Of a stretch of DNA of 64,000 bases, positions 5,067 through 53,004 are shown in pieces. Source of the DNA: Paramacrobiotus metropolitanus (Eukaryota > Tardigrada > Eutardigrada > Parachela > Macrobiotidae); assembly GCF_019649055.1 (NCBI RefSeq), contig NW_026570254.1:248001-312000 (forward strand). The letters are read 5' to 3'. Positions within the stretch are counted from its first letter, which is position 1. The number at the start of each line of letters is the position of its first letter. A program made the translations under genes and the position numbers. Below the pieces are notes generated by a model that saw only the letters and a program-made list of their open reading frames with translations, was not told the DNA's origin and ran no database searches.

Positions 5067-6279
5067 TTACGACAGATCAACAGTTCGGAGAGCAAATTTA
5101 AAAAATCCCACACCATCAACACTGAGTATCTGCATGTTAACTTTTTTTATGCGCTCAAAGATGTTCCTTAGTCGCATGGCCAGTGTGCCTTCTCCGATCT
5201 TCTTCTTCGCTCTGGCTGCAATTCTCGTTAGGTTCCGCAGGTTGTACACCATTCCCAGATCCGTGAAGTCGATCATCCCGACCATATACCGCGGCGGATG
5301 GTATGCTTCGTGGTTGTAGATCTTATACAGCCAGACTGCTTCAGACTGCTTCCAACGGTCGTACACCGGCAGGATGCGCAGTTTCTGATACAGCTCGGGT
5401 GTAACCCGCTCCTTGTAATCAGAAATCGCCCGCAGTGCTTTCCGCTGTGCCCTATCTAATTTCTCGCGTAAAGCCGAAGATGCCGGCGACCACGTATCTG
5501 ACCCGTAATCCAGATGTGGCTGCACACAGGCATGGTAAAGGCTCCTACGCTGAGGCAGATCCAGGCCGTCTTTCGCGCGGTTGATCATTGCGATGCCGTA
5601 GTTAACTTTTCGCAGTATGTGGTCATAATGCACACTCCACTTCAGGTTGAGATCAATGTGAACGCCTAGGTACTTAACCGACTGCTCCGCTTCCATCTTG
5701 TGACCGTTAATCATTACTGCAGGAGTGCTGGCTGTTCTTTGTTTCCGAGCAGATGTACATTAACTTGCACTTTTTCTCGTTGATGCACAGGGTGTTGTTT
5801 GCAAGCCAAGCCGTTACGTTGTTAACTTCAACGGTTAATTTCGCTGCTGCTTCTGTTTTGGTGGCACCGCATCCAAACAATACGGTGTCGTCGGCAAAAC
5901 ATTCTGCATCGCTTCCGTTCGTCATGTCGTTCGTATAGATCGTGTACAGTGCAGGTGCCATCATTGTCCCTTGCGGCACCCCCGACCGCACTGGTAGCCA
6001 GTCAGACACACGTGCGGTCATTTTCACTCTCTGCTTGCGACTGGTTAAATATCCATGAAACCACTTCAACACGTTACCTTCGATCCCGATCATTTTCAGT
6101 TTTTCGATGAGTTTGGCATGGGAAACTGAATCGAACGCCTTTTTCAGGTCTAGAAAACATACAGCAGTGACATGCCCTTTATCCATCGCTTTTCGCCATC
6201 TCTCCGAAACCTTAAGGAGCAGTGTTTCACAGGAGTGGCCTTCCCTAAATCCAGACTGCTTGTCGGAGAGGTGCTCCAT
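5067..6279 (-). pseudogene. LINE reverse transcriptase fragment, one frameshift
   Basis: The first segment (6279-5707) contains QSGFREGHSCETLLL, FLDLKKAFDSVSH (first catalytic Asp), GVPQGT and the FADD catalytic box. The second (5714-5067) contains VKYLGVHID, YHACVQPHLDYGSD and a basic C-terminus, typical of Jockey/CR1/RTE-type enzymes. The two segments are in different frames and meet near 5710, so at least one indel has broken the gene. The endonuclease and the N-terminal part of the polymerase are absent because of the 5' truncation. Confidence 0.85.
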
Positions 6280-6615
6280 TAGCGGATGGCGGATCCAGAC
6301 TGCTGCTCCATTAGCGGATGACTCACCTCAATCTCCGTACTATATAGCTATCTGCGCTCAGAAAAAAATTATTGAACTGGAACACTTAATTGCTCGTTTC
6401 CCAGGACAAGAATGCTGTGTCCAGGATGAACAGTGCATGTAAAAATAACGTATTGCTATACATCAGAATAGTTCAGGCATTCCGAAATTCTACCCTAGAA
6501 AATCCACGTTGGAATTAGGCAACTCGTACGCAGATGAACGCATGGTTCCGATTTAACTGGCATCAGTGAAATGTGTATTTTCCCTATCAGTATCCAGTAT
6601 CCACACGAATTTTTT

Positions 6616-16038: not shown

Positions 16039-21731
<5,693 letters not shown>

Positions 21732-34700: not shown

Positions 34701-36786
34701 AACCATCCTGTTATCATTTCATAATCTCTTTCAAGTAGGTAATAAATCACTCACCTGCGATGTGGGGATCGGTCAGTAATAGTTTGAACTGGCTCAAAAA
34801 TATCATCATGTTGGTATTAATTTTTATGTCCGCCGTTGTCAAGTGGTTGAAGCTTATCGTTCTCTTTTTATTTTCTTCATGAACGATGGGTCAACTGAAA
34901 ACAAAAGCTAGAATGCACTGCCCTGTTTTTCGATCCAAAAACTCTTCCGGAGATATTAGTCATGTAATGTCAGTACAACGAGGTGCTGCAGTCATAGGGT
35001 TGTCATTTTATGATTGATCCAGTTTTCAAAAATTTCGCATTGGTTGTACTGATAAGAAGCGATTTCGATGTTCTGGTTTCATTGACATCAGATCAGTATT
35101 TTAATTGTTGATCTTGATGCGGTGGCAGCGGTCACGTTACTACATGACTGATAATCGGCTTTAATGTAAATAAAACTAGCCTTCTGCCGATCAGTTTTTT
35201 CGTTAGTCGATCCGCGTATTCTGTATACTGAAAAGATGACAGTCTTGATAAACCGCAGTAGTAGTATTTGGATATCGGGATGGAATACAAATTGTTAATT
35301 ATGGATTACCGAAGGGGTTCGTTGGGTAAAGAGGGCTCTTTGCAGGGTACAAAGATTCCTCCCTCACCTCTTGCGGGATCTCCTATCGCATCACCAGCGG
35401 CCTTCATGGGCCATAGCACAACAACGCCGCCGCCGGCGCATTCTGGCCTGGGCCGACATGGCGTCCTGTCTCCTTATGGTCATCTTTCACCATACTTTCC
35501 GCACTATCCGGGCATGTTTAGTCCCGATTACTTTGCCATGCAGCACCATATGATGGATATTATGCACAGAAATATGACCAGTCCAGGAATGCGTACACCG
35601 TCACCGTTCCCTAGTATGGCGCCGCCGTCGCCTTTTGCTCTGCCCATGTTGGGCTCGCCTCCTGGCTACGGTTTTATGCATCCCGGTGGACTATCGCATT
35701 TCATACCGCCCTCACCTGATGCATCTGGACGGTAAGATATACTGCGACATCATTCTGGAAAAATGTTACTTTGTAACTAAAATGGAAAATGAATTAATTG
35801 TGAAAAAATTTGGAGAACAAGTTTCTGATTTTACGCAGGTTTTCGAATGGAATGGTCAGCTCGTCGCGTGCGCAGCATCGCGCTGGCTCGCCGACTTCGT
35901 CGACATCGAGTGTGAGAGAAGCGATGGAACGCCGTCGTGAAGCAAAGAAAGAAAAAATGAATCACGTCAAAAAGCCTCTGAATGCCTTCATGCTGTACAT
36001 GAAGGAGCAGCGAGCCCAAGTACAGGCAGAATGCACACTGAAAGAAAGTGCGGCCATTAATCAGATTCTGGGCAAGAAGGTGAGGGTCAGGACTAGGACG
36101 CGATGTTGAAAAATCACGGTTTGCAAGTGTTTCGTTTTGTAGTGGCACTCTTTGGATCGTGCTGAACAGAGCAAGTATTACGAAATGGCGAAACAAGAGC
36201 GCGAAAAACATGCACAAGCCTATCCAGGATGGACAGCTAAGGACAACTACGCTCTGTGCGGGAAGAAGAAGCGTAGGAAGAAGGAAAAGTCGGATGGTTA
36301 GCTTCGTTTAGACACATTACATTCGTATTGTTTGCAGCATTTAAGTTTTGTTTTATTTCGCAGAACCAAAAAAATGTAGAGCAGTATTTGGAATTGATCG
36401 TCAGGCGGAATGGTGTAAACCATGTCGGTAAGCAGTGCATTTCGTGCATCATTGCATGTACTCCGTAGTAACCTCTGACTACGTAATTGACAAATGTGAT
36501 TGCCATGAATTCACAACATCTAGTAGCAGTAAGGTTTGTTGTATGAAAGCCGATTCAATGTACTCGTACTAATGAATGCATCTTCCGTTTTAGACGCAAG
36601 AAAAAGTGTATACGATACTCACAGAACGCCGCGTTACTGCTCAACGGGCACGAGAATTACCTGCATGATTCAAAGCCGGCGGAGTCCGTTTCCTGTGTGT
36701 CCTCTTCCATGCAGGTTCTCTCGCCGTCCGCTGATTCAGCGGCCTCCTCCACATCTCCCTCATCGACGGCTGCATCAACAGGCTGA
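22771..36786 (+). CDS. TCF: TCF/LEF HMG-box transcription factor of Wnt signalling (486 aa)
   Basis: Main model exons 22771-22986, 23300-23348, 24813-24970, 35346-35731, 35839-36079, 36143-36296, 36364-36427, 36594-36786 (1461 nt). TCF binds Wnt target enhancers and recruits beta-catenin through its N-terminus or Groucho without it. Seen: N-terminal beta-catenin-binding motif [14 protein letters not shown] (compare DELISFKDEGEQE), a Pro/Ser/Met-rich middle, HMG box [18 protein letters not shown] ... [19 protein letters not shown], basic tail KKKRRKKEK and a complete C-clamp [19 protein letters not shown] / RRKKKCIRY (four cysteines), which binds the helper site. The C-terminus after the clamp is short and Ser-rich. 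An additional exon at 32942-33100 fits only as an alternative start. The single-gene type corresponds to fly pangolin. Confidence 0.9.
32942..33100 (+). CDS. TCF: Alternative first coding exon of TCF (candidate)
   Basis: Open frame [18 protein letters not shown]... ends at a strong donor (TAC|GTGAGT) in phase 0, so it splices in frame to 35346 and would give a 398-residue protein. A pyrimidine tract and AG at 32939-32940 lie just before the ATG, but joining from exon 3 (24970, phase 0) puts it out of frame and hits a stop. It therefore looks like a start exon reached from an unseen 5' non-coding exon. The product would keep the HMG box and C-clamp but lack the beta-catenin-binding domain. Confidence 0.5.
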
Positions 36787-44681: not shown

Positions 44682-47600
44682 ATGGCTGACGCTGACCTTC
44701 GAGATTCTGATGACTGTCTGGATCATCTCCGGAAAGTCCGATTGGCTAATGAGCCATGCGACGTGGACATCGTTGTGGGAGAGGAAAGGTTTATGGCGCA
44801 CAGAGCGATCCTGTCCGCAGTCAGGTAATCTAAAAGTCTACAAGTTTCACATTGTTAAATAATTCTCAAAATTGTATATTATTCTTCTGGTTCCATTTGT
44901 TATTTTGGAAAATTTATTTGCATTGCAGTGTCGTTTGTGGGTAACGGTGCCACTAACACGAAAATAGTAAATAGTGTAATTAGACATTACGTCGGACTCA
45001 AATATTAAATATTACAACGATATGTATAGTGACTTTCCAGTCATCCATGCATTCTGGTACAATACTAAATAGCCATACAAGGAGGGAATACGTTCAGTTT
45101 TTAATGAATTCTTCATACAGATTAATGTGATAAATCCACATAAATCAATCATTTGATTTTTATAATATACCGCATGTAAGAGAGTATGCGCGCATGTATG
45201 CTGGAAGAGAGTTAAGCGCGCTTTTATAGTTCGGTCAGCAAAATACAACAGTTAGTTATTGTACTCGTACATTTTACATTATATTTTTACGGAACTGCAT
45301 TTAATTTGGCAATAAAATTTGATTTCTTGAACACTGTAGTAAACTGTGAAATTATTATCACTGCCGTGACAAAGGGTGCGGAACTACATGTTTGCTTTGT
45401 TTTCATCTGATGTCATCAGTCAATCAAAGTTTTTTTGGAAGGTTTATTTCTTTCAGATCCGATACAGTCACACATTTCTTAGTTTTTAAGATGGAGATAA
45501 AGGCACTTTTCAGTGACTACGTACTTCCACACGAACCATATCGATTACATGTGAACGTATTGACAACATTCCGTTGTTCACAATAAGGTCACGGCAAAAT
45601 TTTGACATATTTTGCATTATGAGCGCGATGTGCATAACGGATCCAGAGATTTTGATCGAAAATGTTAAAACTAAAACTTTGCTGTTAAATTTTAACCACT
45701 GTTAAAATGCAAAATTAATTAATGAGGAAATAGCTATTTGAAATTTTAGATTACTACGGTTACTGACAATTACTGAAGAGACAACTATTTACGAAATAAC
45801 TGTTTAAGCATCCTCAATATATTCGTTCGAATAAATTCAAGCTGGCAAAATATATTAATATGCGAATACTCGTACTGTGAATGGGTAGCGCCAAATTAAT
45901 AAATAAGCACCAAATATACTGTAGCATATTACTAGTACTCGTACATTAATTTTGTCTGCGTATAGTATTTGAGCATATACTTACTGTAATAATAATATTA
46001 GAGAAATGCAGCAGCGGTAGAATACAAATGCTTAGCGAAATGGAAATTTTAGAGCAACGGTACATGTATCGTTAATGAGCTCAAATGTATCTCTCATCTA
46101 TCCGAGTATATTTTGATCCCGTTTTGAAGTGGGCATTCTGTTTACTTTTCACAGCCCTTATTTTCGCACCATGTTCTCACCAAAGTATGTCGAGCACTAT
46201 CAACGACAAATACAGCTTGCCCAAGCCGATGCAACTGCCGTCGGTCTCCTTCTGGACTTTGCCTATACGGGAAAACTTGAAATCTGTGAGGATAACGTGG
46301 AGACACTACTGATAACCGCTGACCGGCTGGAGTTTTGCATCGTCCGCAAAGAGTGCTGTGAATTCTTAGCAGAGCAGCTGGACGCTGGCAACTGCTTAGG
46401 GATCGCCCGGTTTGCTCATTCTTTGGGTTGCACCGATTTGGAGAAAAAAGCAAAACAATTTGCCAACAAGCATTTTTTGGATGTTGTACGGGAGGATGAA
46501 TTTTACCACCTTTCGGAGTGTGAACTATGTGAAATAATTTCAAGTCAATATCTAACAGTCAACCGAGAGGATGATGTATTACAAGTATGTATAGTAGTAT
46601 ACCCTTTACGTATTATAAAATCCTTCTAGCGACTTAATAGAAGACCTCCAGATATGCATGTGTTGCGGTTTTGCCATTGTAAAACTTTGGTAATCAGAAT
46701 CGCTCTTGATAGAGCATGCTGCAAATTAATTTTACGTATTCCTTTTAGATTTAGTTAGTATTCAGACCTGGTGCATTTTTTCACAGATTATTTGCCACGC
46801 TGCTGTACAGTGTTTTTTTTTTAAAATTTCACAGTCTTATCACACTTTTTATTGTCATAATTTATAGCAGTAGTAAAGTTACTAATTTGTTAATTTAATT
46901 TGTTTCGTGGTTTATCAACTTCTAGGCGGCGCTGCGCTGGATCCATAGTAATTGGAAAATGCAAAATTTCTCGGTGGACCGAATTTTAGCCGAAATCAAA
47001 ATGAGTTTCCTGGATTACAAGGCCATTTTGAGCATCTTCAAGGAATTTCAAGATGATGCCGATTTTCTTTCTCTTGTGGCAAAGCCAATCGAAGATGTCA
47101 TCCTGTTTGTGCGGAATACGATTGGATGCGGGCCTTTGCAGCGGGAACGAAATTCGATCCGGCAGTTTGCATATGTTGTTGGTAAGCCGCTTGTTCGAGT
47201 CACGGTCAGCTACAGACTACAGTACTGGATATTGCAGCGCGAAGCTGATGGGTTCAATATCAAAGCCATCAAATATACAAGTTAATGAAGTTGGTGACAA
47301 ATTGCAATTGGACGAGCAAACAGAATCATCGCTGGGATGAAACAACTGTCAGCTCGTGACACTTTATGTCCTATCCGTTCCAGAGTTTGGGGAATATGAT
47401 TCTTCCCCAAACAAATCCACCGAAAAATCCCGCTGTGCTTCCGGGTATTCTTTTTACGTTGCACAGGAAGATTTTGCCTGAATTTAATATTTTAATAAAC
47501 ATTATTAATAAGGGTTTTACACCAGAGTTAATTAGAACTGAAATGGTTTTCACATTGTCAACACGGGATGAGAGCGTAGAGTCTAGTCGAGGTTTCATCT

Positions 47601-50233
47601 CACATCGCTTAATCCTTTAATGCCGCTTATGCTGCGTTTCGTGACACACAAAGGCGCCTTTTACAGGGTTCATATAAGGCAATTAACCGGTGCGTGCGTA
47701 ACCCCGTCGGGTAATTAAATTTATAATCCATATGCTAGAATGTCTCAACTGACGTTTTGATTGTTTCAATGGCATGCGTCTAATGGATGAAAATGTGATT
47801 TTGCCGATAATATCATAAAACGCATTGTATTGTTGCTGAAGCATAAAATCATATTGCCGCATCGTAAAAGGGCGTACAGGCTGATTAGGCGGCACTGGAT
47901 GCAGCCGGCTAGCTCTGGCAGTGGAGTGCGCCTGCGCAGAAAATAGGACAGCGGCGCAGGGACGGTGCGGGCCAGATCTGGGAAGATAAAGTACGGGTCA
48001 GGTATCGATCTGATCAAATTAGACAAACAGCATTCCCATCAGGCTGACGCGTGTAGTCCACAACGGGAAGCATATGCAGAGCGTACGCTGGATGTATCGA
48101 TTGTGAAGTGAAATTATTAAGTGCTGATGAGAGTGATGGATTAATGCAACAGTAGTCCCCATTGATATGTATGTATTCCAGCGGATTCGGGAACCTGCGG
48201 GTAAAGTCGTTAATAATCGAGTAAGCGCCTTTACAAACCAACGGGCCTGGCATAATCAGATCAATAGCAGGGCATACAAACAACATGCCTCTCTAATTAC
48301 GGGGGCTTATCCCGCCCCAGGGGCGCTCTTCATTAACTCCCTGTACATCCGGCGCGAGGACAATGTGTAAAAGCATTAACAAACAGTTAAATCGGATATC
48401 AACATCCCAGGGAAACCCCATCTAATGCACTGCTGAGCTGCGACAAAAAGATAATTTGTTTCGGAATTATACACGGTTCCTTTTTGTTCTTAGGCGGATC
48501 GGCCGGAAGCGCTGAATGTGATACAGTGGAGCGTTACGATCCGCTGAGAGATGAATGGATTAGCATGAAAAGTCTGGAAGGGCGACGAGGATGGAGTCCA
48601 AGAGGAGCGGCTGTTGATAATAAGATGCATATATTTTGCACCGACGATAAGGATGGTCGTCCAGCGACGCAAGAAATGTACGCACGTTAACACTAATAAG
48701 TTTATGTCGTTAATGCCCGTCGTGAAATGAATTAAATTTCGTTAAATAAAGAATTTACCTTCTGAATTCTGATGATATGATTGCAGTTACACCTCATTTC
48801 GCAACTTCTGGAAAGCCTCGCCTATGATTCTAACCGGTCTTTCCGAAAATCCAGTTGCGGACGATTCCGCTGTCGTTGCTCTCCAAGGGTCAATATTTGT
48901 GATAGGTGGATCTGGGGTAAATACTTCGACATCAATTTCTACTTAACAGATTAACAGTAATATAAACTTATTTACCACTACGAGTACCTCATTTACTAAT
49001 TTTTTAAACTCGTAATGGAGCATGCATCTCACAGCTAGGATGGGGATTTAAACCTGGCCAAAGGGATTTTAGTTTGATCAAATTAATGCTTATCATGATG
49101 ATTTGAGCATGGTGCAAATGGTACAAATTTATTTTTCAGCCAATGGCAATGCCCATAAACAGCGTTCGGATGTTTAATCCAGAATCGGGAACATGGTCGT
49201 ACAAAGCCAGTTTAAAACGAGCCCGAATCTCCCCGGCTGCTGTAGTTACGCGTAGTGGTCAGCTTTACGTCGCAGGCGGTTACATAGACACTTCCGGTAA
49301 GGACGGCTGCACTATCAGTTGCACGCATACGTAGTTATTGCGCTTACATGTGCCATTCTACTAGCGAAATAATCCTTTTGCAGAGGACGGCGAAATCTGT
49401 AATGTGGAAAATTCGGTGGAACATTATTCTTCTGCCACGGATGAATGGACCTACATGACCCCCATGTTGAAGGCACGTTCAAATTTTGGCTTAGTGGAGC
49501 TGAATGGGTGTTTGTACGCCATCGGAGGGAGGTAATTATTTCTTTCCGTGCCGGAATATATTAGCTAAAGCTGCATGAAGGCGCCACAGCGCAGGCGCTC
49601 ACAATGGCGGCCGTCGTGGTGGAAAATTATTTCGGTTGCATTATCGATAATGAGGCCGTTTAAGTTAATGTCCATGGTGCACTATTGAAGTCTTGTGGTG
49701 AAAAATATATTCTCCACTCTATGGAGTGAAATATTCCCTGCACCTGTCGGGCAGAATTGTTCTTAAGCAGACCGTATCCCAATCGCGTGACAATCCCGAG
49801 TCTTTTGTGCACTGGACAAGCAGGTCAACCAAAAGTGATTTGCGATAGTAGATGCGCGTGACCTTTGCTATGCAGTATTGTAGTGGAGTTTAGAATATGG
49901 CTCGTAATTGCTCAAATGAATGTTATGTGCCGTAGGGGACTGTATCAAACACTCGTTTCCTGCGAGAAATACAATCCGCACACGGATACGTGGACGCTCG
50001 TGGCTAACTTGAATGTACCGCGGAATGGACATATGGTATTCGTGCTGCATAACAAGATTTACGTATGCGGTGGACTGGATGGTGTGGAATACTTGACTTC
50101 AGTGGAGAGTTATTGTCCGTTGACCAATGCATGGACATTGCGTGCTGATATGACGCAAGAACGCTGGGATGCTGTTGTCGGCATCCTAGAAGCGCCACTC
50201 TATCCGTCGGAAACAGAGCAGCGTGATAATTAA
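44682..50233 (+). CDS. BTB-BACK-Kelch protein, KLHL family (581 aa)
   Basis: Eight exons: 44682-44824, 46155-46584, 46926-47181, 48494-48677, 48787-48916, 49140-49296, 49384-49531, 49936-50233, phases closing to 1746 nt. KLHL proteins are substrate adaptors of Cullin-3 ubiquitin ligases. The BTB dimerisation domain occupies about residues 15-125 (CDVDIVVGEERFMAHRAILS, then SPYFRTMFSP). The BACK domain is about 130-270 (AALRWIHSNW, RILAEIKMSFLDY). The C-terminal half is a beta-propeller with repeats showing the Y...W / GG pattern: VERYDPLRDEW, VRMFNPESGTWSYKA, SVEHYSSATDEW, CEKYNPHTDTW, VESYCPLTNAW and doublets such as YVAGG, YAIGG and YVCGG. I cannot say which KLHL subfamily. The final Kelch exon runs to the stop with a short tail. 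Confidence 0.88.
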
Positions 50234-52093: not shown

Positions 52094-53004
52094 TCAGCGC
52101 CGACCACCTAATCCGAAGCGAATGCTTTTTAGCCGGCTGAAATCAAGATTGCGGTCGCCTCTGGACAGTTCCTGTAGAACGTCTTCCCAACTGCCTCCCT
52201 TCGGTCGCTTCCCGAAACGCGCACGTTTGGACTTCATATCGGCTCCTACAATATGAAAATTAATTACCTTAACAGGTACAGTTCTCTCAGAATGGCCTTA
52301 AGCTTGCGGGAATGGCCTTGCGGGTCTTGGTTTATACACTTGTGTTATTGTAGGGGCTAGGCTTAGTACAAATTCATAGCAAACCCTCAGCGATTATTTT
52401 AGAACCTACCGTAATCAACTTCATCCAAAAATGGAATTTGATCGCCGGCATCTATACCTGGAAATCAGTTTTCAGTACAGCCATGCGTTAGAACATTATT
52501 ACAATTACAGTGTCGGCATCAAGAAATCGACGTGCAAATACATTCAGCACTTTACAAATTAAAAGAATGAATTGATTGATGTATGTAGCTCTGATATCTT
52601 TTCAGCTGCAACGCCTATACGAGAATAATTTGTCGGTACAGCCATCAGTTTCAGTTACATCAGTTACATTTTTCCTCTACCTGGAGCTGGACCCTCAAAA
52701 TTACAACGTATTTGTCGCAAAAGGTTCACAATAAACAGGAAGCACCACTAGTATTGTATTTAAAGTTGGTGTGGTGGAATGCTCAAAATGCAGCGCAGTA
52801 TACTCATGCAGTCATGCCTCCTTTAATATCATTACAAGAATATAATTAGTTGTATACCGCCTTTACTAGCAACTGACCGTTTCGTCCATATCCATAATCT
52901 AGTAGAAGGTGATTATCCACCGGACTGGGATAAGCTGTCGCGTAATTGGTCATAATTAAACCAACCATAAGCAGACTACCAAGTAATGTGTGAAGATATT
53001 CCAT
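52094..53004 (-). CDS. Neuropeptide-like precursor, RFamide type (108 aa)
   Basis: Three exons 53004-52878, 52457-52410 and 52245-52094, with matching phase-1 introns and good splice sites. Too short per exon to appear as a long open frame. A signal peptide, MEYLHTLLGSLLMVGLIMTN (1-20) then YATA, is followed by an acidic spacer and the processing cassette KRARFGKR. Its GKR supplies an amidation glycine plus dibasic cleavage site, predicting an ...ARF-amide C-terminus. The second half ends ...LKSIRFGLGGRR at the stop, again Gly plus dibasic. The stretch FLDEVDYGADMKSKRARFGK resembles the end of insect NPF (FLQDLDTYY...RVRFGKR), but the intron is not in the usual Arg codon, so NPF membership is only a possibility. 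Secreted signalling peptide role inferred. Confidence 0.6.

Follow-up and report, generated by a model that had tools for sequence, protein, structure and literature searches.

A predicted single-copy RFamide-like peptide precursor gene in the eutardigrade Paramacrobiotus metropolitanus, distinct from its NPF and sNPF genes

Introduction

Genes of the NPF/NPY type are marked by a phase-2 intron inside the Arg codon of the C-terminal RF or RY, as described in PMC6585902 and PMC7314547. According to PMC7314547, deuterostome PrRP genes encode a single RFamide peptide beside the signal peptide; a phase-1 intron interrupts its N-terminal or central portion and none comes later, and sNPF is treated as the protostome counterpart of PrRP. 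The present analysis concerns a locus on the minus strand of a 64-kb stretch of Paramacrobiotus metropolitanus DNA (contig NW_026570254.1, positions 248,001 to 312,000; hereafter the window, in which all positions are given). An earlier reading of the letters, here called the original prediction, had proposed a small three-exon neuropeptide-like precursor of possible RFamide/NPF type. The anatomy of the locus supports a small precursor of this kind, and the locus is probably a single-copy gene for the precursor of a peptide hormone or neuropeptide, RFamide-like in character. The RFamide part of the label applies to one of the two amidation sites, and the NPF part was rejected.

Tardigrades are neighbors of the arthropods, and little work has been done on their peptide signaling; precursors that are not shared with arthropods therefore bear on the origin of the repertoire. 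The genome-wide survey of tardigrade neuropeptides by Koziol in 2018 reportedly includes NPF and sNPF along with four novel families.

Structure of the precursor gene

The three exons read from the sequence (Table 1) join exactly into an open reading frame (ORF) of 108 residues, with the predicted product MEYLHTLLGSLLMVGLIMTNYATAYPSPVDNHLLLDYGYGRNGIDAGDQIPFLDEVDYGADMKSKRARFGKRPKGGSWEDVLQELSRGDRNLDFSRLKSIRFGLGGRR. Both introns have GT-AG borders and their phases agree, as had been claimed. An in-frame TAA lies six codons 5' of the start codon. Because exon 2 is symmetric, its skipping would keep the frame. An additional exon past FGL, with the donor-like TTAG/GTGGTC, was considered by eye and judged weak. 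When the 108-residue protein was searched against the genome (169.8 Mb, 533 contigs), its own three exons were the sole matches, and the gene is thus single copy. A segment of a CAHS protein had 18 matches in this genome, the best with E 1.6e-45 and 73% identity; CAHS proteins are not known outside the eutardigrades, and the host is most likely one of these. Comparison of a fatty-acid-binding protein of the genome with the PDB, as a further clue to the host, gave general FABP-type matches among the 60 of 242 listed.

The precursor has the general marks of neuropeptide precursors, namely a signal peptide, according to a crude sigcleave-type matrix, and Gly-dibasic cleavage sites. The KRARFGKR cassette is present in exon 3. 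The IRFGLGGRR end reported at the stop codon is also present; it allows no IRFamide, since IRFG is followed by Leu and not by a basic residue. The signal peptide scored 4.8, above the usual threshold of 3.5, which agrees with the original prediction; the TATA box was likewise found, 95 nt before the ATG, in AT-rich DNA where such a box is weak alone.

The rarity of these features in combination was examined on other ORF tails of the window, with known genes excluded by a hand-made mask. With the splice scores fixed at the lowest values of the gene itself, any two- or three-exon model was allowed by 32 of 617 tails, and four of the 617 also matched the signal-peptide score of the gene, two of these four sharing one leader. 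Among 634 tails, 29 contained G[KR][KR], one ended in it and one had two such sites, and RFG[KR][KR] occurred in none. It is the combination of features, not any single one, that exceeds chance, and since these features are jointly rare, a peptide precursor is probably the best reading of the locus.

Predicted processing and products

Transcription, splicing, processing, receptor and function of the gene would follow what is generally known of prohormone processing. The signal peptide would direct the precursor of 108 residues into the secretory pathway, where a prohormone convertase would cleave after KR (residues 71-72) and also at the RR that ends the chain. A carboxypeptidase would then remove the basic residues, and PAM would convert the exposed Gly to an amide.

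The predicted N-terminal product is ...KSKRARFamide, about 45 residues long provided that the inner KR is left intact; cleavage there would give ARFamide. This inner KR poses a difficulty for the long RFamide peptide, because its use would leave the tripeptide ARFamide alone. At the C-terminus, the Gly directly preceding RR would supply the amide, with ...SIRFGLGamide as the sole C-terminal amidation product (PKGGSWEDVLQELSRGDRNLDFSRLKSIRFGLGamide). Both peptides would act on G-protein-coupled receptors.

Comparison with sNPF, PrRP and other families

The sNPF gene of the genome was located at C164 (L053 = G000:C164:8500-11000; 1223-1744). Its precursor is multi-copy, with eight RFG copies (LRLRFG, VRLRFG and further MLRFG/VLRFG) and single Arg sites between them; it scored above the Pfam FARP cut-off and is sNPF/FMRFamide-like. 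The window gene shares the RxRFamide end with it. However, the window gene has one RF peptide instead of eight, RARF only with no LRLRF, and another precursor layout, and an sNPF identity was rejected on these grounds and on the presence of the separate multi-copy gene. Across the genome, the pattern PxLRLRFG was matched 9 times and its control 12 times, and in none of the five of these nine that were read was RFG followed by a basic residue. The pattern [R/S]-[L/F]-RFG-basic-basic gave 18 matches against 17 for the control; stretches covering nine of these 18 were read, and the sNPF precursor lay in a stretch that accounted for two of the matches.

The layout of the window gene resembles that of the PrRP type as set out in PMC7314547, provided that the inner KR is uncut: an RFamide peptide adjoins the leader, with a phase-1 intron within it and none after. 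The window gene differs in having two phase-1 introns, and its similarity to starfish PrRP was at the level of shuffled sequence (169 of 500 shuffles as good), so a PrRP identity was rejected although the layout fits. Phase-1 introns are common in secreted proteins; together with the shuffle-level similarity, this leaves little weight on the PrRP-like layout.

Allatostatin A (Y/FXFGLamide) also has FGL close to its C-terminus. The window gene has only one copy, and an extra Gly would give FGLGamide instead; in FGLG-G-RR no FGLG stands directly before a basic cleavage site, and this family was rejected. The absence of Cys from the precursor excludes the disulphide families. A luqin-type peptide was excluded by the RF end and by this absence of Cys, judged against PMC7041311.

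The gene may belong to a tardigrade or arthropod family that already has a name, such as one of the four families presented as novel in the 2018 survey, a tentative explanation that we consider somewhat unlikely. It overlaps the reading as a peptide precursor and differs from it on novelty only. It draws on the abstract of that survey, which is said to describe four candidate families as novel and to share two of these with arthropods. Against this explanation stand the missing Cys, the missing FGLG[KR] of Allatostatin A and the missing Cys pair of the luqin type. We consider it unlikely that the gene represents a novel tardigrade family in which one precursor would yield two unrelated amidated messengers (RARFamide and FGLGamide) in a PrRP-like layout beside separate NPF and sNPF genes. 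In the boldest form of this proposal, the gene would descend from an ancestral PrRP-type gene, and the protostome sNPF would then not be the sole heir.

Chance assembly and an unprocessed secreted protein as less likely alternatives

That there is no gene at all, and that open frames in AT-rich intergenic DNA merely line up here by chance, was judged quite unlikely, and several results speak for it. Of the 568 ATG-led frames in the window, the gene included, 32 had a signal-peptide score of at least 4.8, compared with 19 of 308 in the reversed sequence; with so many frames at this level, the score is weak by itself. The cassette pattern RxRFGKR was at chance level in the genome, with 81 matches where the reversed pattern had 83. 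Codon usage, tested with known genes likewise masked by hand, gave weak support. The score of exon 1 was equalled or exceeded by a fraction of 0.34 of the non-coding open windows, that of exon 2 by 0.017 and that of exon 3 by 0.038, and in exon 3 a wrong frame with stops (scored zero) gave 0.085 against 0.069 for the proposed frame. No AATAAA or ATTAAA was found within 1,200 nt downstream of the gene, where AATAAT occurs 139 nt past the stop. Against the peptide-precursor reading also stand the lack of any Pfam family for the 108-residue product up to E 10 and, at the same limit, a single and meaningless PDB match (E 1.1). The chance tests are also partly post hoc, as their splice thresholds were taken from the gene itself.

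Against chance assembly stand the rarity of a spliced leader (4 of 617) and of two amidation sites (1 of 634). Other genomic (R/S)xRFGK(R/S) sites were modelled likewise. Besides the gene there were 80 RxRFGKR-type matches, of which 34 were modelled, with 775-894 nt of upstream sequence for the first 14 and 1,309 nt for the other 20; the 46 dropped were repeat copies, matches with Ser as third codon or with an internal stop, plus C130 and C318 (the letters of C318 are identical to those of the modelled C63). At 33 of the 34 sites no model of equal signal-peptide score was obtained. The sole exception (L010, score 5.7) was a single-exon reading of 158 residues that was judged implausible as a leader. 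From the counts on ORF tails, chance is estimated to produce about 0.2 models per window that combine a leader with a single Gly-dibasic site, and about 0.006 that have two such sites; these estimates are on the low side because the thresholds derive from the gene.

It is improbable that the locus encodes a small secreted protein, not a neuropeptide, in which the GKR and GRR sites stay unprocessed. Signal peptides and phase-1 introns are frequent among short secreted proteins, and 29 of the 634 chance tails contain G[KR][KR]; however, the window gene has two Gly-dibasic sites in 49 residues, one of them exactly C-terminal, and two sites or a terminal site were each seen in a single tail.

Comparison with NPF genes

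The window gene shares with NPF/NPY precursors, including the two genes described below, a signal peptide, a single long peptide with an amidated Arg-aromatic end and a short C-terminal flanking peptide. By eye, FLDEVDYGADMKSKRARFGKR resembles the end of Drosophila NPF. The window gene differs in lacking the NPF core (LAxxLxxxQEL), in having RARF and not RPRY, and in its second Gly-dibasic site at the C-terminus. The NPF intron was not found at its place: ARFGKR is contiguous in exon 3, and the nearest intron is of phase 1 and lies before ADMKSKRARF.

Alignments were compared with 500 shuffles each, using for the window gene seven NPFs, one of them from C6 (see below). Over these seven, 36-452 of 500 shuffles were as good or better. 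The lowest four values (36-59 of 500), all for arthropod NPFs, give a slight lean to the NPF resemblance that had been noticed before ARFGKR, far below what true NPF genes show. With the gene at C146, 53 of 500 shuffles were as good. No Hormone_3 match was found for the window gene up to E 10, and the family search thus did not bear out an NPF membership.

A search of the genome with shrimp NPF found two other places, C6 and C146, with E values of 0.03 and 0.12. At C6, the leader MTYHFLVFIFAAPVSLA... scored 7.1 and the reading ends ...ELAVLADSLRMVQELSEYYNHKGRPR, with the donor within the Arg codon (CG/gtaagc); the next exon fits 2,369 nt further on and gives RPRYGRSIPDFMNNMTAK-stop. For the C6 segment before RPR, 0-3 of 500 shuffles were as good against six NPFs. 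The joined C6 precursor reached E 0.008 with Pfam Hormone_3, under the curated cut-off, so this model is weak for tardigrade NPF too; across the genome it gave four matches, none of which passed the cut-off or lay at C6 or C146.

At C146 (L024, G000:C146:167250-170336, minus strand), where the leader was judged by eye, the reading ends ...ENLVNLAETLKRLQELEKYVTHQARPR with the donor AG/gtatgt. The next exon fits 320 nt further on and gives RYGRSVP..., for an RPRYG-RSVP end. For the C146 segment, no shuffle of 500 was as good against six of the seven NPFs, and 121 of 500 were as good against that of Aplysia. With these predicted splices, both genes have the canonical intron and look like canonical NPF genes with predicted RPRYamides, and the genome seems to have two.

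The original prediction had doubted an NPF identity, and the intron, the alignments and the two better NPF genes justify this doubt. Since better candidates stand in the same genome, with NPF intron, NPF-like sequence and predicted RPRYamide, it is very improbable, and largely refuted, that the window gene is the tardigrade NPF or a diverged NPF paralogue, despite the slight lean to arthropod NPFs and its single RF-ended peptide after the signal peptide. The window gene is distinct from the NPF and sNPF genes of the genome. The practical gain is partly negative, in that it should not be annotated as NPF; two better NPF candidates and the sNPF gene are now located in the genome.

Feature coordinates and neighboring frames

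Table 1. Positions of the predicted elements of the precursor gene in the window
Feature	Positions	Strand	Remarks
TATA-like box TATATATAA	53091..53099	-	95 nt upstream of ATG; AT-rich DNA, so weak alone
Exon 1: start codon (ATG at 53004), signal peptide, N-terminal propeptide part; MEYLHTLLGSLLMVGLIMTNYATAYPSPVDNHLLLDYGYGRN + first base of Gly	52878..53004	-	
Predicted signal peptide	52933..53004	-	By eye, cut after ...NYATA (residue 24); by matrix, after residue 19
Intron 1	52458..52877	-	420 nt, GT-AG, phase 1
Exon 2: IDAGDQIPFLDEVDY	52410..52457	-	48 nt, symmetric phase 1-1
Intron 2	52246..52409	-	164 nt, GT-AG, phase 1
Exon 3: ADMKSKRARFGKRPKGGSWEDVLQELSRGDRNLDFSRLKSIRFGLGGRR + stop	52094..52245	-	
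RARFGKR, amidation and dibasic cleavage site; ...RARFamide (predicted)	52205..52225	-	C34:300206-300225 in genome pattern search
GGRR-stop, second amidation/dibasic site at C-terminus	52094..52108	-	Predicted ...SIRFGLGamide

Rfam and tRNA scans of the 64-kb window gave no matches. Several other frames were recognized in the window. On the minus strand, a reverse transcriptase frame (5707-6327; RVT_1, E 5e-28) is a retroelement piece, and MCM replication helicase frames (17214-17609 and 20192-20785; MCM P-loop and MCM_OB) are probably one gene. On the plus strand, a 343-residue open frame (17878-18909) resembles chemosensory receptors of the gustatory type (7tm_7, E 2.9e-9), and an HMG-box frame (35265-36109; HMG_box E 7.5e-10 in 35804-36109) is TCF/LEF-like by eye. 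BTB-BACK and Kelch frames, also on the plus strand (46117-46629 and 49862-50233), are probably one gene; it is convergent with the peptide gene, which lies about 1.9 kb from the end of its last frame.
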